Positions 13,892-28,174 of a DNA stretch of 46,779 bases are shown one piece after another. The stretch lies in the IMG/VR virus record IMGVR_UViG_3300026094_000008, positions 1 to 46,779 of that record; one strand, given 5' to 3'. The DNA comes from a virus. The notes under the pieces were generated by a model. It did not search any database. It had not been told where the DNA came from and was given only the letters and a program-made list of their open reading frames with translations. Position numbers and translations under genes: made by a program. The first letter of the stretch is position 1. Each line of letters begins with the position of its first letter.

Positions 13892-15703
13892 TTAGTTCTC
13901 ACTTTTAATTAATAAATCGTGCTCAGGCAAATATAGATATTCAATTTGACTATTTACTAAAGTTCTAACAGCATCGTCAAGGGTTTCAACTAATGGTTCA
14001 CCGCCTAAATTAAAGCTGGTATTAAATAATATCGGAATGTCTGTTAATTTATAAAATTCTTCTATTAATTCATAAAAGATTTTATTTTGCTCTTTAGATA
14101 CTGTTTGTATTCGACAAGTACCGTCGACATGAATAGTACTAGGAATTTTTTCAGCTACTCCGGGCATGCAATTCATAGCATACATCATATGCGGAGACTC
14201 TGTCATTCCCTTCATATCAAACCAATTATTTGCATGTTCTTTTAATACCGAAGCAGCAAACGGTCTAAAATACTCACGTCGTTTTACCCTATTTACAATG
14301 TCTTTTCCGTTTTCTGCTGTAGGATCAAACAGCAAACTTCTATTTCCTAATGCTCTAGGTCCGGCTTCGGCCCTTCCTTGAAATAATGCTACAATATTTT
14401 TTTCTCTAATTAGGTCAATAATATCGCTTACTGTAACAGTTTCTATATTTGTAGCATTGTACTTTTGATAAACTTCATTGATATTATCTAATGAATAAGT
14501 ATACTTAGGACCAAGATAAAGAGATTCTGCACGCGGTCTCTGCTTTGAATCTTGAGTAGTTTTATGATTCCAATATAATGCTGCACCCATTGCAGTTCCG
14601 GCGTCGTTTGATACTGGCTCTACATAAAAATTAATATCGTGTTTATTAAGATCGTCGAGGTAGAAGTAATTAGCAACACAGTTTAATCCGTAGCCACCAC
14701 TAAAAACTACATTTTTAATTCCAGTCTTTTCGACTGCTTTTAGTATTAGTTCAAGGGCAAACTCTTGTGTTTCTTTTTGAACAGCATATGCCATGTCTCG
14801 CCGATTTTGTAACAAAGTTACATCTCCGTCATAATCCGGAGGAGTTAACAACTCATCATAGCGAGCAGCGTTTAAAAAAGCACCGTTAGGATAAGTTGGA
14901 ATTATTACATTTCTGTCTGAAGTTTTCCATCTACTACCGGTGCCGCTGTCTGTAAAAATTTTAGGAATATTAGGATTAGGGTTACCATATGGCGAAAGCC
15001 CCATAGTTTTTCCGGCTTCGATACTTTGCCATCCGCAGTACTGTGTAACAGATTCATATGATTTAACAATTCCGCCGGTGTCATCAATAAAACATTCGTA
15101 TGTTCCGTTGTGTTCTTCTCTAGCGTTAGACGAATGAAGGTTAGGAATATATGCATGGCCGATAGGGCCGTTTCCGCCTATGTGCTTGTATACTGTTCTA
15201 AAATCTGCAGGATAATTACAGGTGAACATACTCTCTAATTCAAAACCTATTTGTTGCTCACCGTCCCATTCCATATTTAAAAATGTGCCAGCGCCGTCAA
15301 TTATAACAGCAACAGCTTCTTTGAATCCGCTTCTATAAAAAGCAGCCTGAGCATGTAGCTTATGATGTTGGTCAGCTAAATCAATAACTTGAGGATGATT
15401 GTACATATCTATGTCAGAAGAACGATCAATTAGTCCTAGTTTTCTCGCAAGTCCTGTATAAACATCATCGTTGGTGAAATCAACCCGGCCAGCCGTGGTG
15501 TTAAGAGGTTGTGTGTGTGCTACTACTAGATAATCTATTTTATCTGTATAGTCCAATATCTTAATCATACTAGCGTAAGGGCCACCGTCGTACTTTTGCC
15601 GACTAAACCGTTCTTCTTCTGAACTAAAAACAATTTCACCGTCTTTTAGTAGGCATACTCCTGCGTTATGTCCTCGTGTAATGCCGGCTATCCAAAGACT
15701 CAT
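13892..15703 (-). CDS. NodU/CmcH-type carbamoyltransferase
   Basis: This 603-residue enzyme would transfer carbamoyl from carbamoyl phosphate, via a carbamoyl-adenylate, to a hydroxyl, typically on a sugar or antibiotic. The N-terminal YrdC/Kae1-like domain has GITRGHNAG with His12, ADQHHKLHAQAAFY around residues 110-124, and VIIDGAGTF at about 133-141, the metal-site residues of this family. GKTMGLSPYG and FSGGYGLNC follow. The C-terminal domain carries GRAEAGPRALGNRSLL and the late FNTSFNLGGEPLVET. Length and order are those of a complete two-domain enzyme. Homologues occur in marine T4-like phages. The gene starts 1 nt into the stop of the GT9-like gene (TAATG), so the pair are co-translated, which suggests a sugar acceptor. 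Confidence 0.9.
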   Translation of the reverse strand: MSLWIAGITRGHNAGVCLLKDGEIVFSSEEERFSRQKYDGGPYASMIKILDYTDKIDYLVVAHTQPLNTTAGRVDFTNDDVYTGLARKLGLIDRSSDIDMYNHPQVIDLADQHHKLHAQAAFYRSGFKEAVAVIIDGAGTFLNMEWDGEQQIGFELESMFTCNYPADFRTVYKHIGGNGPIGHAYIPNLHSSNAREEHNGTYECFIDDTGGIVKSYESVTQYCGWQSIEAGKTMGLSPYGNPNPNIPKIFTDSGTGSRWKTSDRNVIIPTYPNGAFLNAARYDELLTPPDYDGDVTLLQNRRDMAYAVQKETQEFALELILKAVEKTGIKNVVFSGGYGLNCVANYFYLDDLNKHDINFYVEPVSNDAGTAMGAALYWNHKTTQDSKQRPRAESLYLGPKYTYSLDNINEVYQKYNATNIETVTVSDIIDLIREKNIVALFQGRAEAGPRALGNRSLLFDPTAENGKDIVNRVKRREYFRPFAASVLKEHANNWFDMKGMTESPHMMYAMNCMPGVAEKIPSTIHVDGTCRIQTVSKEQNKIFYELIEEFYKLTDIPILFNTSFNLGGEPLVETLDDAVRTLVNSQIEYLYLPEHDLLIKSEN

Positions 15704-16740
15704 TATTTAACATCTCCGGTCGATGTAAAAGGTTTTGCTCCTGGAATTAATTTTGGCTGACTAGGGTTAACATTTGTACTTGCTTGTAATTTTGATTTTT
15801 TTGATTTTCCTACTCTTTTACGAACAATATTACAAATAGTTTCGATCTGAGTTTCATCTAATTCCATTATTTCGTCGTTGTGACGATCTTGTTCATCCTC
15901 CATTGTTAATCTAATCGGAGCATAAACTCTTTTTCCGTTTCCAACATCAATAATATCAAAGTTAGGATCCTCAGGATAAGAAATATTTATGGGGTATGTA
16001 CTTCCTGTGATAATAGTAGCTGTTTTGCCAAGTGCTTTAGCAATATGCTGTCCTAAGCTGTCGCAACCTAAAAAATGATCTGCTACTTCTATTATGCCGC
16101 ACCAAACTTTTAAATCAGGTATTTCTGGTTGAGCAATAGGAGATTCGTTATTTTTAGTTTCAACATTAACCGGAATCTCGCTCATTATAATGATTCCGTA
16201 TTCTTTCCTTAATTTTTGTATAATATCTATAATATTATTAAGTTGAAAACTTCTTGATGTAGAATCCACTATAAAATTATTTATATTTTCAATACTTCTG
16301 CCAAACGGTTGAATAACTATAACTTTATCAAATCCAGTTACTTGCTTAATTTCTTCTACAACACTTGCTCCTGATATCATTTCATGTTTGTTTATAAAAA
16401 TATTAGGCTTATTGAGATTTCTAATGCCTTTATTGTTTATCGCGATGTCAAATGCCTGAGACAAGTTACACTTTTGATTGTAATATTCCCAAATTCTATA
16501 AGGCTCTGGACTTATACAATTTCTTACTCGAACTTTTTCCTCAAATAAGTTTTGGTGCCAAACATCATATGCTTTCTTTCCTAATAAAGGATGTCCTTTA
16601 AAAAAGTCTCTTCCTCCTTCACAAACAATAATAAAATCATCTTCAGGATTTTCTTCTGCGTATAATTCAAATGCAGGAATAGAACAAATAACGCGGCCAG
16701 CACCGCCATTTATAAAAAACGCTGTAGATCTTTTAGTCAT
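15703..16740 (-). CDS. GT9-like glycosyltransferase (heptosyltransferase type)
   Basis: This 345-residue protein begins with FFINGGAGRVICSIPAFELY, the N-terminal Rossmann loop seen in ADP-heptose:LPS heptosyltransferases. The C-terminal half has VIVIQPFGRS at about 140-149 and ADHFLGCDSLGQHIAKALGK at about 221-240, then TATIITGSTYP, which fit the nucleotide-sugar site of GT9. The last about 50 residues are basic and disordered-looking. The usual N-terminal membrane-attachment helix is absent. It is the first gene of the operon, with a late promoter at 16761 and AAGGA before the ATG, and it is coupled to the carbamoyltransferase. Donor and acceptor unknown. Confidence 0.7.
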   Translation of the reverse strand: MTKRSTAFFINGGAGRVICSIPAFELYAEENPEDDFIIVCEGGRDFFKGHPLLGKKAYDVWHQNLFEEKVRVRNCISPEPYRIWEYYNQKCNLSQAFDIAINNKGIRNLNKPNIFINKHEMISGASVVEEIKQVTGFDKVIVIQPFGRSIENINNFIVDSTSRSFQLNNIIDIIQKLRKEYGIIIMSEIPVNVETKNNESPIAQPEIPDLKVWCGIIEVADHFLGCDSLGQHIAKALGKTATIITGSTYPINISYPEDPNFDIIDVGNGKRVYAPIRLTMEDEQDRHNDEIMELDETQIETICNIVRKRVGKSKKSKLQASTNVNPSQPKLIPGAKPFTSTGDVK

Positions 16741-16824: not shown

Positions 16825-17520
16825 CTAATCTTCTAGAGGATCACTAAACGGTACCTGGGGGAACATAAACAACGCAACGTGCGGCGGAACATTATTTGCC
16901 ATCATAACGTCTGGCAGGTCTCTTAATAGCTGTCTATAGTTTCTCCATTCTGTTTTAAGAGATTCTGGCATGTCGTCAGCTATTTCGCTATCAGAATTTG
17001 ATAATAATGCATCACGATGTTTTCTAATAAAGTTCCAATCGGGTAGATCGCCAACATCCTCTCCTAGAAATACATCAGTAACAGTTCTTGTAGGTATAGT
17101 TACATTGTTATTACTATCGACGATTATACCAAATTTGTCATATATATCGGCCGGTTGTAAAGGTAGCTGATAAGATAATCTATCATATCCTTCTATTGCA
17201 GGAGATTGGGGATGGAATACTTCTTCTGTATAATCTTCTTCTGCTTCGTCTATTACAGGTCCTCGTAATTGACATAACAGCGGATTTTCTACACAATCAA
17301 TTTCTACATATCTACAACCTTCAGGAACTGGTCTGCCGTCGGCTTTCTCCTCCGCAGTTATAGGACCCATTGCTTCTTTGCCTGTTTCGTTATCGATAAT
17401 TAGGTAGAGTTTATCTGGCCCGTCATAAGTTGCAGTTCTGGTTTTACCTTGATTTTGACTATGGTCTACCATATATTCGTCTGGTAATCCAAATTCATAA
17501 TCTACTTCAATTAAAGGCAT
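16825..17520 (-). CDS. Tail-fibre assembly chaperone-like protein
   Basis: This 231-residue acidic protein's C-terminal part (about 160-205) has the Phage_tail_APC-like pattern: IRKHRDALLSNSDSEIADDM followed by LKTEWRNYRQLLRDLPDV. The signature RdxLLxxSDW...DxP...WxxYRQxLRdlP is kept, except that the Trp after SD is Ser. Such chaperones help fibre or tail subunits fold and trimerise. The N-terminal part (MPLIEVDYEFGLPDEYMVD) is unlike any family I know. It lies directly after the three Cys-rich genes, which are possible clients. A late promoter (17548) and TAGGAG precede it, and a strong terminator follows. Confidence 0.65.
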   Translation of the reverse strand: MPLIEVDYEFGLPDEYMVDHSQNQGKTRTATYDGPDKLYLIIDNETGKEAMGPITAEEKADGRPVPEGCRYVEIDCVENPLLCQLRGPVIDEAEEDYTEEVFHPQSPAIEGYDRLSYQLPLQPADIYDKFGIIVDSNNNVTIPTRTVTDVFLGEDVGDLPDWNFIRKHRDALLSNSDSEIADDMPESLKTEWRNYRQLLRDLPDVMMANNVPPHVALFMFPQVPFSDPLED

Positions 17521-17547: not shown

Positions 17548-17554
17548 TATTTAT
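17548..17554 (-). promoter_or_regulatory. Late promoter ATAAATA for the chaperone gene
   Basis: The minus strand reads TTAATAAATACG here, 28 nt before the ATG at 17520. It overlaps the stop codon of the Cys-rich gene just upstream. It gives the chaperone an extra promoter inside a longer readthrough unit. Confidence 0.55.
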
Positions 17555-18357
17555 TAATAATAAGTTAGTTTAACGACGCCGCTGCCACCAGTACCGCCTT
17601 GTCCACAACAACTGCTGCCACAATAATTAGTATGGGCGGTTTGGCCACCAGCAGCATAAGGAACTGACCAGCAACCGCAGCGGATCCAACAAAAGTTACT
17701 ATGCTGGTCTATCTTACCTACATTTAGAAATATTCCGGTTGATGCTGAACTAATCTGTTTCCAGCAGTGACACGTACCGCCAGGATATTGATACGGAGTT
17801 GCGCCGTACTGTCCGTTGTGATTAAATGATGCCATGTCGCCGTCGTTGTCGCCGGGTTGTCGGCAATAGGACGGAAAAGAAAAACAACTACTATTCCAAC
17901 TGCCATTTGCGCAGCCTCTTGCGCCGCCGCACGCACAAAACCCACTAAGTCCAAATCCATTTACATATGATGTACATCCACAACAGCCGTTACATTCTCG
18001 ACTATAACAAGGATAAACACCACCGGCGCACACCGTGTAAGTACATCCGACATCAGATGTTATAGTTTTGGTATTATAGCTACCGCCGCCGCCGCCGGCG
18101 AAGTGCTGACATCTATTACAGGAGCATGTGCCGGCTCCATTGCCGCCAGCACCCCACAGTTCCCAACGCAACACTCTTACATTAGTAGGAACAGTCCAAG
18201 CACAACAGCATCCACTAGTACATGCACCCGGCGAACCATAAAACCATTTTGTACAGAAACTCGATCTCGTAGTGTCTGCAATGTTTTCTTGGGTTATAGC
18301 CTGAGCTTGAATGTTTTCGCTAGTAAGTTTTGCTTTGTAGCTTTTATAACTTGCCAT
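17554..18357 (-). CDS. Cysteine/glycine-rich fibre-like protein, paralogue 1
   Basis: This 267-residue protein has 28 cysteines. It opens MASYKSYKAKLTSENIQAQA, and a Cys-dense region follows. Recurrent features shared by all three paralogues include a CCCAWTVP segment near residue 45, WELWGAGGNG, CSCxRC, CAGGVYPC, SREC, GFGLSGFC or NGFNLSGFC, CHCW, CWIRCGCWSVPY, SSCCGQGGTGG and a final VKLTYY. The WELWGAGG and GQGGTGG parts resemble the glycine-rich domain found at the tips of phage fibres, but with Cys added throughout. No signal peptide is seen, so any disulphides would form after release, or the thiols bind metal. AGGA precedes the ATG. Confidence 0.75.
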   Translation of the reverse strand: MASYKSYKAKLTSENIQAQAITQENIADTTRSSFCTKWFYGSPGACTSGCCCAWTVPTNVRVLRWELWGAGGNGAGTCSCNRCQHFAGGGGGSYNTKTITSDVGCTYTVCAGGVYPCYSRECNGCCGCTSYVNGFGLSGFCACGGARGCANGSWNSSCFSFPSYCRQPGDNDGDMASFNHNGQYGATPYQYPGGTCHCWKQISSASTGIFLNVGKIDQHSNFCWIRCGCWSVPYAAGGQTAHTNYCGSSCCGQGGTGGSGVVKLTYY

Positions 18358-18366
18358 TATGAATTC

Positions 18367-19149
18367 CTACACATATGTTATTTTTACCAGTCCAGGACCA
18401 CCTGTGCCGCCTTGTCCGCAACATCCACTACCACAATATGTACTCATTGCGCCTTGTCCGCCGTGACCATAAGGCACTGACCAACATCCGCAGCGTATCC
18501 AACACTGTCTAATACTCTGGTTAACTGTTCCGCCTATAATTGCTGCCGGGCCCGGAAACACTTCCTGAACGTGGCAGTGACAATACGCACTAGTTGTGCT
18601 CCAGCCCGGTACCATTGTCTGTTGATAAAAGTCGCCATTATTATCTCCTGGTGCACGACAAAATCCATTATAAGCAAAGCACCCTGTATTCCAACTGGTA
18701 TTTGCTCTTCCTGTTTGGCCTCCGCAAGCACAAAAGCCACTTAGGTTAAACCCATTTGCATATGTAGTGCATCCATTACAGGCTACGCATTCTCTACTTA
18801 AACAGGGATAAACGCCGCCTGCGCATACTGTATAAACACAGCCTTCGCTAGTACCTATGCTTTTTGTATTATAAGAACCGCCCTGCGCTCCTTGATAGTG
18901 ATGACATCTTCTACAGGAACACGCGCCATGGCCGTTGCCACCGGCGCCCCATAACTCCCAGGTTATTTTTTTAACTCCTGTAGGAACAGTCCAGGCACAA
19001 CAGCATCCACTTGAACATCGACAAGGATTTCCGTAGATCCATTTTACACCAAATGTATTCAGTGCATTATTATCAATGTCAGCATCTTGAATAGATCCGT
19101 CGGTGATTTCTTCGGCTGATATTTTTTTATAACTCGAATACGTTGCCAT
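18367..19149 (-). CDS. Cysteine/glycine-rich fibre-like protein, paralogue 2
   Basis: This 260-residue protein has 26 cysteines on the same scaffold as paralogue 1. It is much closer to paralogue 3: three DNA blocks are identical or nearly so (18372-18414, 18728-18843, 18983-19048 against 19167-19209, 19520-19635, 19775-19840). Between these blocks the middle segment (residues about 150-215, for example QTGRANTSWNTGC) diverges strongly. The N-terminal 35 residues also differ (MATYSSYKKISAEEITDG), as expected for an attachment region adapted to a different partner. It ends GPGLVKITYV. Function inferred from the glycine-rich fibre-tip resemblance only. Confidence 0.75.
   Translation of the reverse strand: MATYSSYKKISAEEITDGSIQDADIDNNALNTFGVKWIYGNPCRCSSGCCCAWTVPTGVKKITWELWGAGGNGHGACSCRRCHHYQGAQGGSYNTKSIGTSEGCVYTVCAGGVYPCLSRECVACNGCTTYANGFNLSGFCACGGQTGRANTSWNTGCFAYNGFCRAPGDNNGDFYQQTMVPGWSTTSAYCHCHVQEVFPGPAAIIGGTVNQSIRQCWIRCGCWSVPYGHGGQGAMSTYCGSGCCGQGGTGGPGLVKITYV
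18728..18843 (-). repeat. 116-bp near-identical block shared with 19520-19635
   Basis: 115 of 116 bases match 19520-19635 (offset 792). It codes for the CAGGVYPCLSREC to NGFNLSGFC part of paralogue 2. The neighbouring coding sequence diverges, so the block suggests gene conversion or strong local constraint. Confidence 0.9.
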
Positions 19150-19161
19150 TAAATTTTCTCA

Positions 19162-19941
19162 CTATGCATATGTTATTTTTACCAGTCCAGGACCACCTGT
19201 GCCGCCTTGACCGCAGCAGCCACTACCACAATAGCTAGACATACCTCCTTGGCCTCCGTGACCATAAGGAACAATCCAGCAGCCGCAACGTATATAGCAT
19301 ACATGTATTTGCTGTTCTACGTTGCCGCCGATAAAAGGCGCACTAGTTGGTCTTGTTTGTTGCCAATGACAGTGACAGTTAAAAATGCCGCCGAAGCTAC
19401 CGCTGTGGTTTCCCATTCCAAAATCGCCGCCGTTCTGGCCTGGTGCAAGACAGCAAGGCCAACAACTAAACGAACTGTTGGTCCAGTCAGTATTTGCACA
19501 ACCTGTTCTGCCACCTATTGCACAAAAGCCACTTAGGTTAAATCCATTTGCATATGTAGTGCATCCATTACAGGCTACGCATTCTCTACTTAAACAGGGA
19601 TAAACGCCGCCTGCGCATACTGTATAAACACAGCCGGGCTCAGTAGAAATCATCTTGCTATTATAATAACCACCTTGTGCACCAGCAAAGTGATGACATC
19701 TACTACAGGAACACGCGCCATGGCCGTTGCCACCGGCGCCCCACAACTCCCAAAATACTCGACGTGTATTTTCTGGAACAGTCCAGGCACAACAGCATCC
19801 ACTTGAACATCGACAAGGATTTCCGTAGATCCATTTTACATTTAATCTATGTCGAGTCTCGATATCTAATTTTTCGTCAGTAATAATTCCCGGAGGTATT
19901 TGGTCTGACTTTACCTGTTTATAAGAGTTGTAATTTGCCAT
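19162..19941 (-). CDS. Cysteine/glycine-rich fibre-like protein, paralogue 3
   Basis: This 259-residue protein has 27 cysteines. It shares with paralogue 2 the blocks KWIYGNPCRCSSGCCCAWTV, CAGGVYPCLSREC, VACNGCTTYANGFNLSGFC and GSGCCGQGGTGGPGLVKITY. The central part (TGCANTDWTNSSFSCWPCC onward) is different. AAGG lies before the ATG. It is the first of the three after the 238-aa fibre-end-like gene, so the unit is fibre end, three Cys-rich proteins, then chaperone. The long plus-strand ORFs over these genes are antisense shadows of their regular codon pattern. Confidence 0.75.
   Translation of the reverse strand: MANYNSYKQVKSDQIPPGIITDEKLDIETRHRLNVKWIYGNPCRCSSGCCCAWTVPENTRRVFWELWGAGGNGHGACSCSRCHHFAGAQGGYYNSKMISTEPGCVYTVCAGGVYPCLSRECVACNGCTTYANGFNLSGFCAIGGRTGCANTDWTNSSFSCWPCCLAPGQNGGDFGMGNHSGSFGGIFNCHCHWQQTRPTSAPFIGGNVEQQIHVCYIRCGCWIVPYGHGGQGGMSSYCGSGCCGQGGTGGPGLVKITYA
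19520..19635 (-). repeat. 116-bp near-identical block shared with 18728-18843
   Basis: This is the partner of the block in paralogue 2; the single difference is a T for C inside a run near 19543. Two further blocks of 43 and 66 identical bases flank it in the two genes. Confidence 0.9.
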
Positions 19942-19950
19942 AAATTTACC

Positions 19951-20667
19951 TTAGACTGTAAGTATTCGCCATCCGGCGCTAGCATTGTAATAAACCAAAG
20001 AAAATGCAGCTCCTTCTGTACTAACTACTAGGTCATCGGAATCTCCCATGATGTTACTGCCGTTTCTAGCTACAGTAAGAGAATTAGTATCGAACGTATT
20101 GTCAACATCAAAGAATCTTACTTCGTCGCCTTTTGAGGGAGATCCTGGTAGATCAACAGTTACAGTTCCGCTTGATGTGCTTACCCAATTTGTTTGAAAA
20201 GCAAGGGTGGTTCTGTCAGAACTTACATCTACGTCTTGAAAGCCCGACACCTGCCACTTAGAACCGGTGTATACTTCTAACAATTCGTAGTCCGTATTAA
20301 ATCTTACAAAACCTGCACTAGCGCCGCCAGGCCTATCTGCAATAGTGCCGGTTGGTATAGTAATGTGTGTAGAAGCAGTACCGAACCCTGTTGAATCTTC
20401 TATAGTTCCGCCAGAAACAAGATCGCCGCCTGAATTAATATCACCTGCAATGCCGATGCCGCCGCTTAATACCAAAGATCCGGTTGAAGTACTATTACTT
20501 GCAGTAGTGTTTGTTATTTCAAAAGGTGCATCTGTGATTACCTTACCTGTACCGTCTGGATCTAGTATTAGATTAGCGTTGGGCACAATACCTTGTACTA
20601 TATTGTCACGAGCAAATAAATTACCTAGTAGCGGTCTTCCTGTTACACCTGTTGATATTTTACGCAT
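19951..20667 (-). CDS. Fibre/virion structural protein, 238 aa
   Basis: This is a fibre-type protein. ILDPDGTGKVITDAPFEITN at about residues 34-53 and SLVLSGGIGIAGDINSGG are the short-strand repeats seen in the large fibres here. RPGGASAGFVRFNTDYELLE (about 113-132) followed by VYTGSKWQV is the same RxxxGxxRFNTD...EVYxGxxW module found at the ends of the 1399-aa, 1097-aa and 169-aa proteins. The C-terminus (about 145-238) forms a further beta-rich domain. AAGGA precedes the ATG and the next gene follows after 9 nt. Probably a short tail-fibre subunit or tip-binding piece. Confidence 0.7.
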   Translation of the reverse strand: MRKISTGVTGRPLLGNLFARDNIVQGIVPNANLILDPDGTGKVITDAPFEITNTTASNSTSTGSLVLSGGIGIAGDINSGGDLVSGGTIEDSTGFGTASTHITIPTGTIADRPGGASAGFVRFNTDYELLEVYTGSKWQVSGFQDVDVSSDRTTLAFQTNWVSTSSGTVTVDLPGSPSKGDEVRFFDVDNTFDTNSLTVARNGSNIMGDSDDLVVSTEGAAFSLVYYNASAGWRILTV

Positions 20668-20677
20668 TTTTTATTCC

Positions 20678-21001
20678 TTAGGAAGTTTCTGTCTCTAAGC
20701 CGTAAACAACTGCTGTAACTTCTGTACTATTAGAACGTACAAAAACATTATATCCTGCCTGTAATACAACTCCGGTTCTTTCAAGAGTTCCGTTACCTAG
20801 TAGATCTGTATCAAACTCTATATAATCTGCATCTGCAGGAGCAGCTTGGTCTGTAAGCGCAATACGTACAGATCTTGTTTGTGAATTCCTGTTAGTAACA
20901 CTTATAGTTACAACGGAAAAGGTTTCTGCAGGCACAGTATAAACTATATCGTCGGTGCCAGCTCCAAGTGCTTGTCTTCCTAAAACTCCGTTAATTGCCA
21001 T
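20678..21001 (-). CDS. Small virion protein, about-110-aa family (copy A)
   Basis: This 107-residue all-beta protein's pattern (residue 20-45: VYTVPAETFSVVTISVTNRN, then an alternating strand, then LQAGYNVFVRSNSTEVTAVV) matches the proteins at 36097-36426 and 44605-44940 in length and layout. That makes three distant copies, each next to a large fibre gene. They are likely spacer, collar or linker subunits; the role is inferred. GGAG precedes the start. Confidence 0.6.
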   Translation of the reverse strand: MAINGVLGRQALGAGTDDIVYTVPAETFSVVTISVTNRNSQTRSVRIALTDQAAPADADYIEFDTDLLGNGTLERTGVVLQAGYNVFVRSNSTEVTAVVYGLETETS

Positions 21002-21016
21002 CGTTTTTTATCTCCA

Positions 21017-24000
21017 TTATCTCAAGTAGTAATTGAAAGCTAGCGGTTGTCCGAGGACTGCACCTTCAAAGTTTACGTTTGCTCGTATATTTATCTGTTC
21101 GCCCGACACAGTAGTAATCTGGTTAGTATTAATAAACACGTCGCCGGCCGTTACAGAGTTAACATTTAGACTGGCGCCGCCGCCGCCAATCTGTGCTTCA
21201 ATAAATGCTTTGACTGCTCGCTGTGTAGGAACAACGTTATCAGAGTTAGCAGTAAAGAACGGATCTGTTGAGAACTCGTTGATTGCTGCAGAGTTTCCGC
21301 CTAGTGTAACTTCACCTAGTGATAGTTCCTGCAAGCCAGCAATATTAAATGCTTCAGCATCAAGTGTAGCCACACCAGTAGCCTGTTCGATTGAGAACAA
21401 ATTACCTACTCTGAAGTTACCGTCTTGGTCTGTAGCTGTAAAGAACACCCTACCACCGTCGAACTCATTTGTTTCTCTATCAGGGTCTGGAGCATTTACA
21501 GGTATACCGGGATAGTTAGTATCAACAAAGTTACCGGTGCCAATATCAAGGAAGTCATGACTGGAGGCACGTACCTGACTGTATCTAATTCTAAGTGTAG
21601 CTCCTACACCGTCTTGAGGTGCGTCTGTAATGCTCATTTCAGGTGATAGCTGTAAGAATGCCGTAAATGACCCTTCGTTGCTACCTATAAAAGACACAGT
21701 GTTAACCAGTTTAAATACCTGTTCTGGCAGGCTATCAAACACAATGTTCGATCCGTTAACTGGTCTAGCAGAGAGGCGTCTTACAGCAACAAAACTGCCA
21801 TCCTGGAAGAAATCAGCAAACCCGTTCGAGTTTTGATCGTTAATTTCTGCAGTTGCAGTAGTAAAGGAAGATCCTCTAGCAACGAATGTCGGGTTAGCAA
21901 GAGAACCATTGCCTAGTCTAACCGCAAGCTCTACAGGTTCAATATTGTTAGGATCAAATATTGAAATTGTAGGAGCAGTATCGTAATTGCTGCCCGGCTC
22001 TGTTAAACGTACTTGGAATAACTGTTCATTAGCTACGCCAGTTCTGCCTTTTGCTCTGGCGCCGATTTCTGCGATCGAAACTGTAGTTGTTGGACTACTT
22101 GCGCCGACAACCAAGAACTGATGATTAAGATTAGGATTACCGTGAGCTACTGCGTCATATCCGGCAGCTTCTGCTCCTAATGTAAACAGTTCCCAAAGAA
22201 TACCGTCTTCCGAATAAGCAATAGAGTTATCGTCTCTGGTTGCTACAAAAATACCTTGTCCGTATGATAGTTGACGGTATACTCCGCCTGTTGGTAAAGT
22301 AGTCTGTATCCATGTTATGCCGTCTGTCGAGTATACGGCAGTAGTTGTATTGCTAGCAATAGCAACGAATCTACCATTACCCCATTCTACATCTACCCAG
22401 TCAGCCGATGCGCCAATCGGAGAAGTTGTCCATGTTAAACCGCCATCTTGGGAATAATAAGCGTTACTACTTCCTCCTTCAAGTGCCATAAATCTGCCTT
22501 TGCCGTGTGTCAACGCAGTAACACCTGTAGCTGGCAATACTCCAGACTGAATACTCCATGTAGCGCCACCGTCTGTTGAAGCGCTGACATCGGTTGATGT
22601 AGAATTTGTAATCAAGAATCTGTTATCGCCCGGCGCAGGTTGTCCGAACGCAATTTTAATTGTGCCTGAACCTATTCCACTGTCGGCTGACTCAAATGTG
22701 TCAGCATCTGATGAATAGTTTACAGTTCCGTCTGCGGCGGCAATTACCAATGCGGATGGTTTTAGTATACTAGATCCGTCGTCTAGCAGACCACTTGCAG
22801 AATCAACCCAGCTAGCAGAAGTAGCAAGCGTAGCAGAAGAGTAGTTTGAGCCTTCTATACTTACATTTGCTGTGCTGCCGCTAGCTGGGGCAATAACAAA
22901 TACACCTTTCTGTCCTAAACCATCGAAATCAAAATCTATTATAGATCCGTTTGTTTCGTCTATAGTTGTGATTGTTACTGTAATATCGTTGAGAGGAGTT
23001 GTTCCTCCTAATAGATTACCTGATATAGTAACAGTGTTTAATCTAGTATAACCTTCGCCGGCGTTGTTAAGAGAGAGGTAGTACTTAGAACCAATTCTGG
23101 TTACATCAAAGGTTGCTTGCTCTCCGTCAGAATTTGTAGTGGTAGCAACTGAATTATATTGTGCTGCAGTTTCAAAATATTCTGCAGTTGAATATGTATT
23201 CGAAGCAATAGATTCTGCAGTAGCAGTTTTTGAAGGAACAGTAAAGAATGCTCTCGGCTCTACTTGATAAGTAGAACTTGAGTTAGGCGCAGTTATAGTC
23301 GTACCTGCTATAACATGTTCCCAGCCGAGCTCCATTTCAATAGCAGTCCCTGTGCCCGATCCTGCACCTGTAGCAGTGAATATAGTTCCCGGTCTTGGAT
23401 TAATAAGGGTTTCATTGCTGATACTGTCCCAATCTGTGTCACCTGCGTCTTCGATTCTATAAATTGTCGATGTAGTAAAACTTCCTGCTGAGGTTGGAGT
23501 ATAAGTAGTTGGTCTTACTACTTCTGCTTCTTTTGAGCCCGAATCATATGTATATACGGTGCCATACTGTCCGGTAGCTGCTCCAGCAGTTATGTATATT
23601 GCCATGCCTGGATAAGCAGAGCTTAGATTTCCATCTGTTGCTGCAAGGAATAAGCTAGTAAAACTACCTGTTTGAGCTGTATTCGAAACAAGTGTAAACC
23701 CACTTCCGCCAGCAGTGTCTGGCTCAGTTTCTACTATTCTTATCTGTTTTACTGCTCCGTCTCTGAATTCGTCTGCTACTAACTCTTCGCTGTCTCCAGC
23801 ACCGAATATATTGATTTCAGCTTCGGTATACCTATCACCAGCATGTCCGAACTCAAGCTGGAGAATTTCGTCTTGGTCAGTGAAAACATTTTCTACAGTA
23901 GCATTAAATTGTGTTCTATTATCGACAACAGCAGTTACTGGTGTTTCGTCTGGATCCACACCTTCTGCAGAAGAACCAAATGTACCGTAGGAATTATTAC

Positions 24001-27000
24001 CGTTTGTAGCACGAATTCTTCCGCCTGCTTCTGCTAGGTAGCCCACATGTGAATAATATGTGAATACTGAAACTAGTTCTGCTCTGCCGTTATTGGTAAT
24101 CCATGCTCCAATTCCGTCTGAAATAACCTGTGTAAAGTCATTAGAAACGATAGAATCGTTACCGCCGTTGTGTAATGCGCCGTCAATTTTTTGTCCTACA
24201 GCAGCAAAGCCAAACGTCGACACATTCTGCACGTAAGGAGATCTTGCGGTTATCCATGCTCTAGAATCTTCTGGACCAAATCCAGGATCAAGAGATGCAT
24301 AAGCTCCTGCGGTAGGTCTGCTGGTTCCAAATTCGTTGGCTGGTTTTAAATCACCTTTCAACCCGTCCAGCGACATCAGTCTAAGTCCAGTACCGTTTCT
24401 AAGATAGAAGAGGTCTTCTTCTTGGGAACCTATTACTGAATTGTAGTAGTACCTACCTGCTAGTTTTGATTTATAAAAACCAGGTCTGTATATTGTAACA
24501 CCTTCTGTGTATTTTCTTTCCCACTGTTTTGGCTGTACAAGATCCCATTCAATAGCGTTAATGTATTCTCTAAGATCTCTAGCACATATTTCTTCGTTAT
24601 ATTCGAAATCAGCGCTTACATTTAAAATAAACGAGTATTGTCTGTCAATATATCTCACAGTCTGAATTGAAATTTCTTCTTTGTTTTCTAACAAACTATA
24701 CTGGGCTTCTTGGAGATTTTCATCTGTCCAAGTCACTACAGGATATTCTACATCGTCAAGAACAATCAAGTTTAGAGTATTCGCAACATCTCTTGCTATG
24801 TCGAGCAAAGTTTCTGCTTTAGTAGCTTCGGTAGAAGTTGCAGGTGCTCCTGAAAAGTCTTGTGCTATTCCGCTCTGTAATTCTGTAACGTCTGTTTCTA
24901 CAATTACTTCTTGAATAATTGTTTTAATATAATCTAAACCGTCTACTAGTGCGGTTTGTTCTGTAGAACCATCTGTTAAATTGCTGTCTTCTGTGTAAAT
25001 TCTTGCAATTTCTCTAGAAGCACTGTTGCCGCCATACATTATGTCATATCTTATTGCATCAATAAAATACCCTAGTTCTTTGCTTCTTTGAGCATCATCG
25101 TATGTAAGTGCTGCATAATTTTGATCTATATAGGCAATAAATTCTGCCCGTAAAAAATCGCGGTTATTTGTTAATTGATCAACAGCATTCTGTTGGTCAG
25201 TTGTAGAAAGATCACCCGGAGGTATGCTAAGTGCGTCAGCATTTGCATCTCCGTTTTCTACAATATCTCGTACTTCGTTAAATGCTGCATTAACTCTTGA
25301 CAGTGCATTTACATCTAATTTTATAGCTCTTAAATCAGTTACTAATGTCTGACTAAGGCTAATACCGTCTAGTGTTTCTTCCAGTTGTGTTGCTATATCT
25401 GTTCCTGCTGTACCTCTTCTTACAGCTAAACCTCTAGTTACAGCATTGTAGTTTGTGTTAAGAACCGTGTCCCAACTTGAACCTTCTATAATTAATTGTG
25501 TTTCTCTTCTAAAAGATTTTTTGTCATAATCAAAGGCCGATTGCTGAGGAGTAAGTTCTTCTTCAGTACCGCCTATAACCGTAGATATTGTAAACGTATT
25601 TTCGTCTATAATATCTTTTACAAAATAATTCACATCGTCTTGCAGACCAACGTTAAAAAGCGTAAGTTCGGAAGAATTGTTGGGTATAGTAAATTGAACC
25701 GGCATGTTTGCTGTTAGCCAGCTTGTGTCTGCTATAACTACTTGATTTGTTCCGACCTCTGATACTGCTACATCAAAGAACCAGTCGTCTACATAGGCTT
25801 TTGCTTCTTGGACAACAAGTTCTTTATTCAATTCTAATTGTCGAACTGCATTATAGTTTTCAATAAAATCGACCTGGTCTACATTACCTTCCGAAGATGC
25901 GGACCAAATTATATCGTTTACGTATTCCCACGTAGCGTTTACCGTAATTATTGCGTCTACTACTCCGTTTACATTGTTGTTTACCAAGCGGCGAGCATAT
26001 TCGTTTGCTGCTAGTGTAGCATCTTTCTGCTCTCCTAATACCTTTTTAGATTCTGCTCTTAGGTATGAATATGCAGTTAGTATACCAGCATAGTTAGTGT
26101 CTAGCATCCAATCGTATCTAGCAGCCTCTGCTATTAAACCTAGGTCTCTACTACATTTTGAGTGAATATAGGAAAATCCACTGTATTCGTTTGTTACAAA
26201 TTGGATTGCATCTACAACAATAGTGTCTGCATTTGTATCGATTGTGTTCTTAGCAGTTTGGAATTCTGCTGCAGGCCAAGTAGCGTCTGGGAACGATATA
26301 GCCGGAACACCTGTTAGACTTTCGGCTGTTAGTGCATCCTGTATGATGTCAATATTAAGTTCAATCTGACCAGCTTCGGTTGCAGTAGCCGGAGTACCTA
26401 GAGTAGTCTGTATTTCTGTGTTACCTGATTGTGTAGAAACGCTCTGTTCCTGTATAACCTGTTTTGTTATATCACTTAGGTGTTCGTACGCGTCGACTAT
26501 GTTTGCAATTTCTCCGTTCCAAACAGTTGTATCTTGGAAGAAATACGATTCTGTTAATTTTGTTACTGCTTGTGTGCCTTGATAAAGCACATCATAACTT
26601 AATGATTGTAGAAGATATTCTAGCTCTCTTCTATATAGATCTTCGTCGTACTCAAATTCGAACCAAATGCTTGCTGGATCAGGATCGTTAACTGTATTTT
26701 CTTGTACTTGATTATCAATATAAGCAATTGTGTCTTCTATAATAAAGTCTATATTTGCTTGGATAAGATTTTTTGAATCTACTCTATCTTGGTCTGCTCC
26801 GGTAGGAGTAGGATAAGAAAGCGAAGGACTAGAATCTCTACCTTTTCTAATTATGTCTACTATATTGTTAAAAGAATCGGTTGCACGAGTGGTTGCTGTT
26901 GTAGAACTAACAAGATCTGCAACTTCGTCTCGCATAAATCTTATTGCACCGACAATAGCAGCTTGATCTGTTCTTAGTATATTTCTATTATACGCTTTGT

Positions 27001-28174
27001 CATAGACAATTCCGTTAGCAAAACTGTTGTAGTTTGTGCCTAGTGCTATATCGAAAGCAACGTCTTCTAGAATATTTGCAAAATCTTCTCTATATTTTGC
27101 ACTATCAAAAGTAAAGGTACCAAAATTCTCATTAATAAAATCAATAGTCTTTTCTTGTATTTCTGGTAGTGCTGCAACAAGTGCGTTACTAGCTGCAACT
27201 TCTACATCAGGCGAATCTACCGTTGATGGATAGGTAATTGTGATAGTGCCAGAGCCCGAGTCAATAATTGCAATTATGTCGTTCATTAAATCATCTATAA
27301 TGGCAGAAACTGCTAGTGTTCCCCCTGTTCCCGGAATTTGCTCTACTTCGGTTTGAAACGGAGGAGTGACAATAATATTCCTGCCGACTGTCTGTATCAG
27401 AGCGCTTAGATAGGTTAGAGCATCAAGAACAGCTTGTTTGTCATCAGATCCTATCCCAAAATCTACGCCGTCATAATAAGCTTCACCAGCATTAACACTC
27501 TGCCAGTTGCCGCCGTATGTAAGATCGTATGCTACAGAATCTATTATAAATCCTATATCTTTTTTGGCTTTTGTTCTACTGTATCTTATATTAGGATATT
27601 CTTCTGCGAGATAGGCAATAACTTCTGCTTTAATAAATTCTTTGTTGAGGAGGCCTAGGTCTCTGCTGTTTCCGATATTAGGATCCGACAGATCGTATGC
27701 AGGGACTAGTTTAGCATCAATTTTGTTTCCAAGTTCTACATCAATAGTCTTCTTTATATTTCTTGCTAATCTTTCTGCCTCTGATGCTACCTGAGGAGCT
27801 TCTGCATAAGGCCATGAATCAATTTGTGCAATTGTATTTCCAGGAGTGTTTCTAAAAGAAACTCCTTCAACCACATCGCCGATTACAGCTTCTATTCTTT
27901 CTATTGCTAAAGAGCTATACTTGAAATCATTCTTAGAAGTCAATATGCTGTTAGAATCTTTTCTTGGCTGAACATTTGTAGAACGCAATTCGTCTCCCAT
28001 TATGCAGCATTCTGCTGGCACGATAATAGGTAAAACTTCTCTATATTGTCCAGTAGACACTTTGATAAGTGTCTTTCTAATTGATCTAGCAGGAACTGCT
28101 TCGTCGTTACCGGCTGTAACTGCGTCTGTTACAATTTTTCCTAGACTTTCAATTGTCTCAAATATCGTTGCCAT
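21017..28174 (-). CDS. Giant virion/fibre protein, 2385 aa, with seven helical modules
   Basis: This is the largest gene in the window. It starts with the second half of a beta-helix-like segment (LPIIVPAECCIMGDELRST, about 48-66). Seven copies of a helical module follow near residues 196, 353, 506, 670, 878, 1023 and 1188, with the pattern YxxxKxxRDhGhhhDAhxYDhhhGxN. A beta-helix part spans about 1245-1410, with RPTAGAYASLDPGFGPEDSR and SPYVQNVSTFG. Sialidase-type Asp-box repeats (SxDGG/TxW) lie at about 1870-2010. The C-terminal end has ATDQDGNFRVGNLFSIEQAT (about 2244) and VPTQRAVKAFIEAQ. Architecture and C-terminus match the 1824-aa protein. It probably forms a fibre or tail-associated adhesin with glycan-binding parts. 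Its SD, AGGAGG, lies in the end of the 656-aa gene. Confidence 0.8.
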   Translation of the reverse strand: MATIFETIESLGKIVTDAVTAGNDEAVPARSIRKTLIKVSTGQYREVLPIIVPAECCIMGDELRSTNVQPRKDSNSILTSKNDFKYSSLAIERIEAVIGDVVEGVSFRNTPGNTIAQIDSWPYAEAPQVASEAERLARNIKKTIDVELGNKIDAKLVPAYDLSDPNIGNSRDLGLLNKEFIKAEVIAYLAEEYPNIRYSRTKAKKDIGFIIDSVAYDLTYGGNWQSVNAGEAYYDGVDFGIGSDDKQAVLDALTYLSALIQTVGRNIIVTPPFQTEVEQIPGTGGTLAVSAIIDDLMNDIIAIIDSGSGTITITYPSTVDSPDVEVAASNALVAALPEIQEKTIDFINENFGTFTFDSAKYREDFANILEDVAFDIALGTNYNSFANGIVYDKAYNRNILRTDQAAIVGAIRFMRDEVADLVSSTTATTRATDSFNNIVDIIRKGRDSSPSLSYPTPTGADQDRVDSKNLIQANIDFIIEDTIAYIDNQVQENTVNDPDPASIWFEFEYDEDLYRRELEYLLQSLSYDVLYQGTQAVTKLTESYFFQDTTVWNGEIANIVDAYEHLSDITKQVIQEQSVSTQSGNTEIQTTLGTPATATEAGQIELNIDIIQDALTAESLTGVPAISFPDATWPAAEFQTAKNTIDTNADTIVVDAIQFVTNEYSGFSYIHSKCSRDLGLIAEAARYDWMLDTNYAGILTAYSYLRAESKKVLGEQKDATLAANEYARRLVNNNVNGVVDAIITVNATWEYVNDIIWSASSEGNVDQVDFIENYNAVRQLELNKELVVQEAKAYVDDWFFDVAVSEVGTNQVVIADTSWLTANMPVQFTIPNNSSELTLFNVGLQDDVNYFVKDIIDENTFTISTVIGGTEEELTPQQSAFDYDKKSFRRETQLIIEGSSWDTVLNTNYNAVTRGLAVRRGTAGTDIATQLEETLDGISLSQTLVTDLRAIKLDVNALSRVNAAFNEVRDIVENGDANADALSIPPGDLSTTDQQNAVDQLTNNRDFLRAEFIAYIDQNYAALTYDDAQRSKELGYFIDAIRYDIMYGGNSASREIARIYTEDSNLTDGSTEQTALVDGLDYIKTIIQEVIVETDVTELQSGIAQDFSGAPATSTEATKAETLLDIARDVANTLNLIVLDDVEYPVVTWTDENLQEAQYSLLENKEEISIQTVRYIDRQYSFILNVSADFEYNEEICARDLREYINAIEWDLVQPKQWERKYTEGVTIYRPGFYKSKLAGRYYYNSVIGSQEEDLFYLRNGTGLRLMSLDGLKGDLKPANEFGTSRPTAGAYASLDPGFGPEDSRAWITARSPYVQNVSTFGFAAVGQKIDGALHNGGNDSIVSNDFTQVISDGIGAWITNNGRAELVSVFTYYSHVGYLAEAGGRIRATNGNNSYGTFGSSAEGVDPDETPVTAVVDNRTQFNATVENVFTDQDEILQLEFGHAGDRYTEAEINIFGAGDSEELVADEFRDGAVKQIRIVETEPDTAGGSGFTLVSNTAQTGSFTSLFLAATDGNLSSAYPGMAIYITAGAATGQYGTVYTYDSGSKEAEVVRPTTYTPTSAGSFTTSTIYRIEDAGDTDWDSISNETLINPRPGTIFTATGAGSGTGTAIEMELGWEHVIAGTTITAPNSSSTYQVEPRAFFTVPSKTATAESIASNTYSTAEYFETAAQYNSVATTTNSDGEQATFDVTRIGSKYYLSLNNAGEGYTRLNTVTISGNLLGGTTPLNDITVTITTIDETNGSIIDFDFDGLGQKGVFVIAPASGSTANVSIEGSNYSSATLATSASWVDSASGLLDDGSSILKPSALVIAAADGTVNYSSDADTFESADSGIGSGTIKIAFGQPAPGDNRFLITNSTSTDVSASTDGGATWSIQSGVLPATGVTALTHGKGRFMALEGGSSNAYYSQDGGLTWTTSPIGASADWVDVEWGNGRFVAIASNTTTAVYSTDGITWIQTTLPTGGVYRQLSYGQGIFVATRDDNSIAYSEDGILWELFTLGAEAAGYDAVAHGNPNLNHQFLVVGASSPTTTVSIAEIGARAKGRTGVANEQLFQVRLTEPGSNYDTAPTISIFDPNNIEPVELAVRLGNGSLANPTFVARGSSFTTATAEINDQNSNGFADFFQDGSFVAVRRLSARPVNGSNIVFDSLPEQVFKLVNTVSFIGSNEGSFTAFLQLSPEMSITDAPQDGVGATLRIRYSQVRASSHDFLDIGTGNFVDTNYPGIPVNAPDPDRETNEFDGGRVFFTATDQDGNFRVGNLFSIEQATGVATLDAEAFNIAGLQELSLGEVTLGGNSAAINEFSTDPFFTANSDNVVPTQRAVKAFIEAQIGGGGASLNVNSVTAGDVFINTNQITTVSGEQINIRANVNFEGAVLGQPLAFNYYLR

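Follow-up and report, generated by a model that had tools for sequence, protein, structure and literature searches.

The closest described counterpart of the locus analyzed here is the tail fibre of cyanophage Pam3, whose tip, gp24, is a homotrimer folded by the chaperone gp25 (PMC9608196; PDB 7YPX and 7YFW). The gp38 adhesin of S16/T2-type phages has an architecture related to that of Pam3 gp24 (PMC9608196). It is the glycine-rich distal receptor-binding domain of the long tail fibre. These gp38 adhesins are single-copy and are not known to be Cys-rich. Extensive disulphide bonding of a phage tail has a precedent in Agrobacterium phage Milano (PMC10811340), but there the bonds join subunits of the sheath, tube and baseplate, which are unrelated proteins, and the structural proteins contain 2.1% Cys, as opposed to about 10% in the family described here.

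The DNA that we analyzed is a viral record of 46,779 nucleotides (IMG/VR IMGVR_UViG_3300026094_000008; hereafter, the window). It represents part of the genome of a marine T4-like myovirus and carries genes for a tail sheath stabilizer and a Nol-like carbamoyltransferase, in addition to giant fibre and baseplate-related genes. The genomes of its relatives span 197 to 252 kb, so the window is incomplete. Since the isolated relatives are cyanophages, we infer a cyanobacterial host, and the virus probably infects cyanobacteria. Computational analysis of three adjacent cysteine-rich genes in the window, referred to below as tip genes, suggests a variant of the Pam3 design.

Three cysteine-rich paralogues on a predicted glycine-rich fibre fold

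The three ORFs follow one another on the minus strand as p1, p2 and p3, with gaps of 12 nt (p1/p2) and 9 nt (p2/p3). p1 (19162..19941) encodes 259 aa with 27 Cys and falls in the position-1 clade of its subgroup; p2 (18367..19149) encodes 260 aa with 26 Cys, and p3 (17554..18357) encodes 267 aa with 28 Cys. An initial annotation made from the sequence had reported three tandem Cys-rich paralogues at exactly this location (17554-19941), with these lengths and with 26 to 28 Cys each. The Cys motifs that it listed are present in the proteins, save that p1 carries CYIRCGCW instead of CWIRCGCW, and its claim that a signal peptide is absent would agree with the hydrophilic N-terminus of p1 (MANYNSYKQVKSDQ). 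Cys accounts for 86 of the 14,347 residues (0.6%) in the 33 other ORFs of the window, and the binomial chance of at least 26 Cys in 260 residues is 2e-23; a chance origin of the Cys richness is excluded. This composition is a family trait, with a mean Cys content of 10.5% (range, 8.8 to 12.7%) over 193 distinct homologues.

The PHROG 4205 profile covers p1, p2 and p3 at full length, from residue 1 to the end (E = 1.6e-49, 3.2e-48 and 3.7e-47, respectively), and the two P-SSM2 relatives align end to end with PHROG 35878; both PHROGs are listed as of unknown function. Pfam Gly_rich_2 (PF21722; curated cut-off, 24.3 bits) scores p3 above the cut-off (32 bits) and p1 and p2 below it (18.6 and 16.6 bits), and two of the three copies of S-SSM7 pass it outright. 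A sequence search of the PDB returned no relative. Gly_rich_2 matches were absent from S-PM2, P-SSM4, S-SM2, P-HM2 and P-SSM7, and the "adhesin block" of S-PM2 (PMC9910659) was therefore dropped as a comparison.

The AlphaFold2 model of p2 (input alignment of 134 rows; pLDDT 85.8, pTM 0.80) predicts a TNF-like beta-sandwich with distal layered loops. Among solved structures, the Pam3 tail fibre matches it best, with Z scores of 16.2 and 15.7 over 190 to 221 residues and a Foldseek E value of 5e-7. This is about 4 Z units above the next entry, the Bxb1 tail tip (Z 11.7), which is followed by the glycine-rich domain of ALK (Z about 10). A single-chain model of p1-p2-p3 read through with stops as Gly, built on a shallow alignment of 15 rows, reached only pLDDT 41 and pTM 0.30, too low to be informative. 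The window tips resemble Pam3 gp24 in the predicted TNF-like plus glycine-rich distal fold, in a TFA-type chaperone and in a probable cyanobacterial host, at a sequence identity of about 14 to 15%. They differ from it in that Pam3 deploys a single homotrimeric gene product, whereas the tip family comprises two or three distinct paralogues.

Composition sets the two further apart. Gly makes up 39% of the Gly-rich domain of Pam3, and cysteine goes unmentioned in the paper, whereas the tip proteins contain about 17% Gly and about 10% Cys and lack a Pam3-type polyglycine lattice. Cys in the tip family is enriched at places where ordinary members carry Gly. Ordinary Gly_rich_2 proteins of related phages are nearly Cys-free and far richer in Gly: that of P-SSM2 (485 residues) has 134 Gly but 2 Cys, and that of S-SSM5 (389 residues) has 130 Gly but 2 Cys. 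The tip family is thus a variant of a known fibre-tip fold with cysteine in place of glycine.

Copy number and paralogue identity

Relatives were found in about 130 viral contigs plus isolated cyanophages. Homologues of the window type occur in 80 viral contigs and in the isolates S-SSM7, S-SSM6a and Sf-FS3; two further triplets of this type lie on contigs binned in Flavobacteriales and Rhodobacteraceae MAGs (L088 and L089), probably by misbinning, since their gene content is that of phages. A more distant S-CAM type is represented by S-CAM1, S-CAM3 and 46 contigs, and a third type by P-SSM2, P-SSM5, single-cell viruses and four contigs. Each of the 82 complete window-type loci, counting the window itself, contains exactly three copies in tandem, and the sole exception to three is a locus that starts at a contig end. 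The same holds for 46/46 complete loci of the S-CAM type, with two exceptions that are both at contig ends, and P-SSM2-type phages have two copies in 6/6 loci. Many of these contigs are closely related (a 97% identity threshold leaves 55 window-type triplets), so that the loci do not amount to 130 independent tests of copy number.

The copies are also distinct by position. The S-CAM type has monophyletic positions 1, 2 and 3 (support 1.00, 0.97 and 0.98, respectively), and copies a and b of the P-SSM2 type are also monophyletic (0.93 and 1.00). In the window type, every subgroup resolves the positions into pure clades; when subgroups are combined, p2 is the only position that stays together, with weak support (45 in the UFBoot tree). 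In that tree, all window-type copies group in a single clade (100), separate from the S-CAM copies (79), which implies either independent trebling or an old triplet homogenized by gene conversion. Trebling may have occurred independently in the two lineages.

Recent gene conversion between the neighbours p1 and p2 is real in the window (18367-19941). Over codons 41-80 and 101-140 the two genes have almost all silent sites in common, and identical residues use the same codon in 67 of 70 cases; they diverge strongly at codons 141-220 and become near-identical in DNA again at the 3' end. These tracts, the fixed three copies and the position-specific identity had not figured in the initial annotation. 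The divergent central segment that it pointed out at about 150-215 (about 141-215 in our analysis) does differ between paralogues, with 32 to 51% identity at residues 161-225, but its proposal of a variable surface there fails, as orthologues are 60 to 69% identical over the same residues and dN/dS is 0.18 (0.08 to 0.17 elsewhere). The central segment is a paralogue-specific region under purifying selection, which marks paralogue identity rather than a hypervariable receptor surface.

These patterns bear on how the three proteins are assembled. Each could form a homotrimeric receptor-binding tip of its own, dedicated to one receptor or one fibre, so that the three serve as a multivalent host-range set, in keeping with the homotrimeric state of Pam3 gp24 (PMC9608196) and with the concentration of paralogue differences in the central segment. 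We regard this as unlikely, since variation in number, order and sequence would be expected of a host-range set, whereas copy number is invariant within each lineage and the segment expected to vary is under purifying selection. That relatives keep exactly three copies, each distinct, rather suggests assembly into one cross-linked tip. A 1:1:1 trimer is the most economical assembly, because all three-copy relatives retain three distinct copies; one copy of each per trimer would account both for the retention of three copies and for their separate identities. We propose this heterotrimer tentatively, at somewhat below even chances, and view as slightly more doubtful its strictest form, i.e., a disulphide-welded obligate heterotrimeric adhesin with one copy of each paralogue in one asymmetric fibre tip. 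The main difficulty is the P-SSM2 type: three is not universal, and two copies, which the separate homotrimers would accommodate, are unexplained by a 1:1:1 trimer. That window-type position clades are firm only within subgroups also counts against it.

Conservation and possible pairing of cysteines

The conserved Cys frame noted at the outset is borne out by the alignment of 193 homologues, in which 22 columns are at least 90% Cys and 16 of these about 100%. Signs of pairing come from reciprocal relocations. A Cys is found at position 104 or 134 in 182/193 sequences and at 142 or 163 in 190/193, never at both sites of either pair. The 104/134 swap took place on the same tree branch six times (p 9e-9) and the 142/163 swap twice (p 8e-5; hypergeometric test, 300 pairs tested). 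Retention of Cys at either of two sites is expected if both reach the same partner thiol; reciprocal relocation points to paired thiols and is compatible with either disulphide or metal. Deeper lineages have retained Cys richness with most Cys positions shifted, and the S-CAM and P-SSM2 types together have only three columns with 90% Cys.

Other potential signs of bonding were discarded. Of 66 distinct triplets, 39 have an odd and 27 an even summed Cys count, so that not all Cys can pair inside one 1:1:1 complex, and parity lends no support to full pairing. A Cys at position 34 occurs in p1 and p3 and never in p2, but its co-occurrence has exceptions (the window and L003), and it was rejected as an inter-subunit bond. 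High cross-paralogue Cys correlations were not counted, as many are lineage-wide.

A metal-binding lattice (Zn, Fe or Cu) would account for the cysteines in a different manner. Metal sites at fibre tips are known, e.g., in T4 gp37, and the tip proteins offer a C-H-C motif with the fully conserved His191 as well as CxCxxC, CxxxCxC and CxxC spacings. Where a conserved Cys is lost, however, His or Asp takes its place less often than N, G, M, A, Y or W, and pairwise bonding fits the reciprocal relocations at least as well, which makes a metal lattice improbable. Overall, we consider it probable that the cysteines are linked by disulphides.

Gene neighbourhood and a putative cross-linked tip

The tip genes are embedded in a minus-strand tail fibre module. 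Its 5' end is a giant protein of 2385 aa (21017..28174; tail fibre PHROGs, best E = 3.5e-77), the presumed carrier of the tip. A small protein of 107 aa (20678..21001; tail fibre PHROG 11338, E = 7e-10) and one of 238 aa (19951..20667), assigned to the tail module by weak tail PHROG matches and position, lie between this gene and p1; P-SSM2, S-CAM1 and S-CAM3 have similar 106-aa proteins ahead of their tips. On the other side of p3 is a tail-fibre-assembly chaperone of 231 aa (16825..17520; Phage_tail_APC, PF16778, E = 1.6e-10; tail fibre assembly PHROGs), and a chaperone gene of this family adjoins the tips in the window, S-SSM7 and L002 loci.

A Nol-like carbamoyltransferase and a 345-aa gene follow the tip module in the window (13892-16740); in related cyanophages, a carbamoyltransferase occupies this position and sugar genes come next. 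S-SSM7 (L081:14589-15248) and Sf-FS3 (L082:12550-13182) carry a DUF6445/2OG-Fe(II) oxygenase gene directly after the chaperone, where the window has none. In the P-SSM2 type, a gene for 224 to 243 aa lies between the two tip genes (L083:8837-9514, L087:7083-7757 and L090:4498-5229); it is in the size range of the chaperone and has no Pfam match in P-SSM2.

The predicted Pam3 fibre fold and the location between fibre and chaperone genes uphold the fibre-tip adhesin framework of the initial annotation, and we consider a fibre-tip role of the three proteins very likely. A virion decoration away from the tip is highly unlikely: Gly_rich_2-like folds do occur in non-tip proteins, e.g., giant-virus collagen-like proteins, but the location between giant fibre gene and fibre chaperone is fixed in divergent lineages.

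Taken jointly, the data lead us to favour, with moderate confidence, a cysteine-cross-linked tip, possibly a 1:1:1 (hetero)trimer, that forms the distal end of a T4-like cyanophage tail fibre and contacts the host. Each tip protein would adopt the Pam3-like TNF-like plus glycine-rich fold, with the polyglycine lattice largely swapped for a cysteine lattice. p1, p2 and p3 would assemble in the cytoplasm, helped by the neighbouring TFA chaperone, and cap the trimeric giant fibre as a single asymmetric trimer with one copy of each. Disulphides would most likely lock the cysteine lattice after lysis, once the virion meets oxygenated seawater. From fold and gene context, we infer that the proteins reside in the virion and contact a host receptor; our searches found neither virion proteomics nor a solved structure of them. 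The fold and role are already known. Cys-rich tips were not described in the open-licence papers that we searched, against which the cysteine lattice and the fixed triplet appear new.

The proteins with which marine cyanophages grip Synechococcus and Prochlorococcus are poorly known. The tip triplet provides a defined candidate for a host-gripping protein in isolated phages such as S-SSM7, S-CAM1 and P-SSM2. A heterotrimeric tip, if true, would depart from the homotrimeric organization that is usual for phage fibre ends. Likewise, the change from a polyglycine to a cysteine lattice, if confirmed, would represent a route for hardening a virion part that is exposed to seawater.
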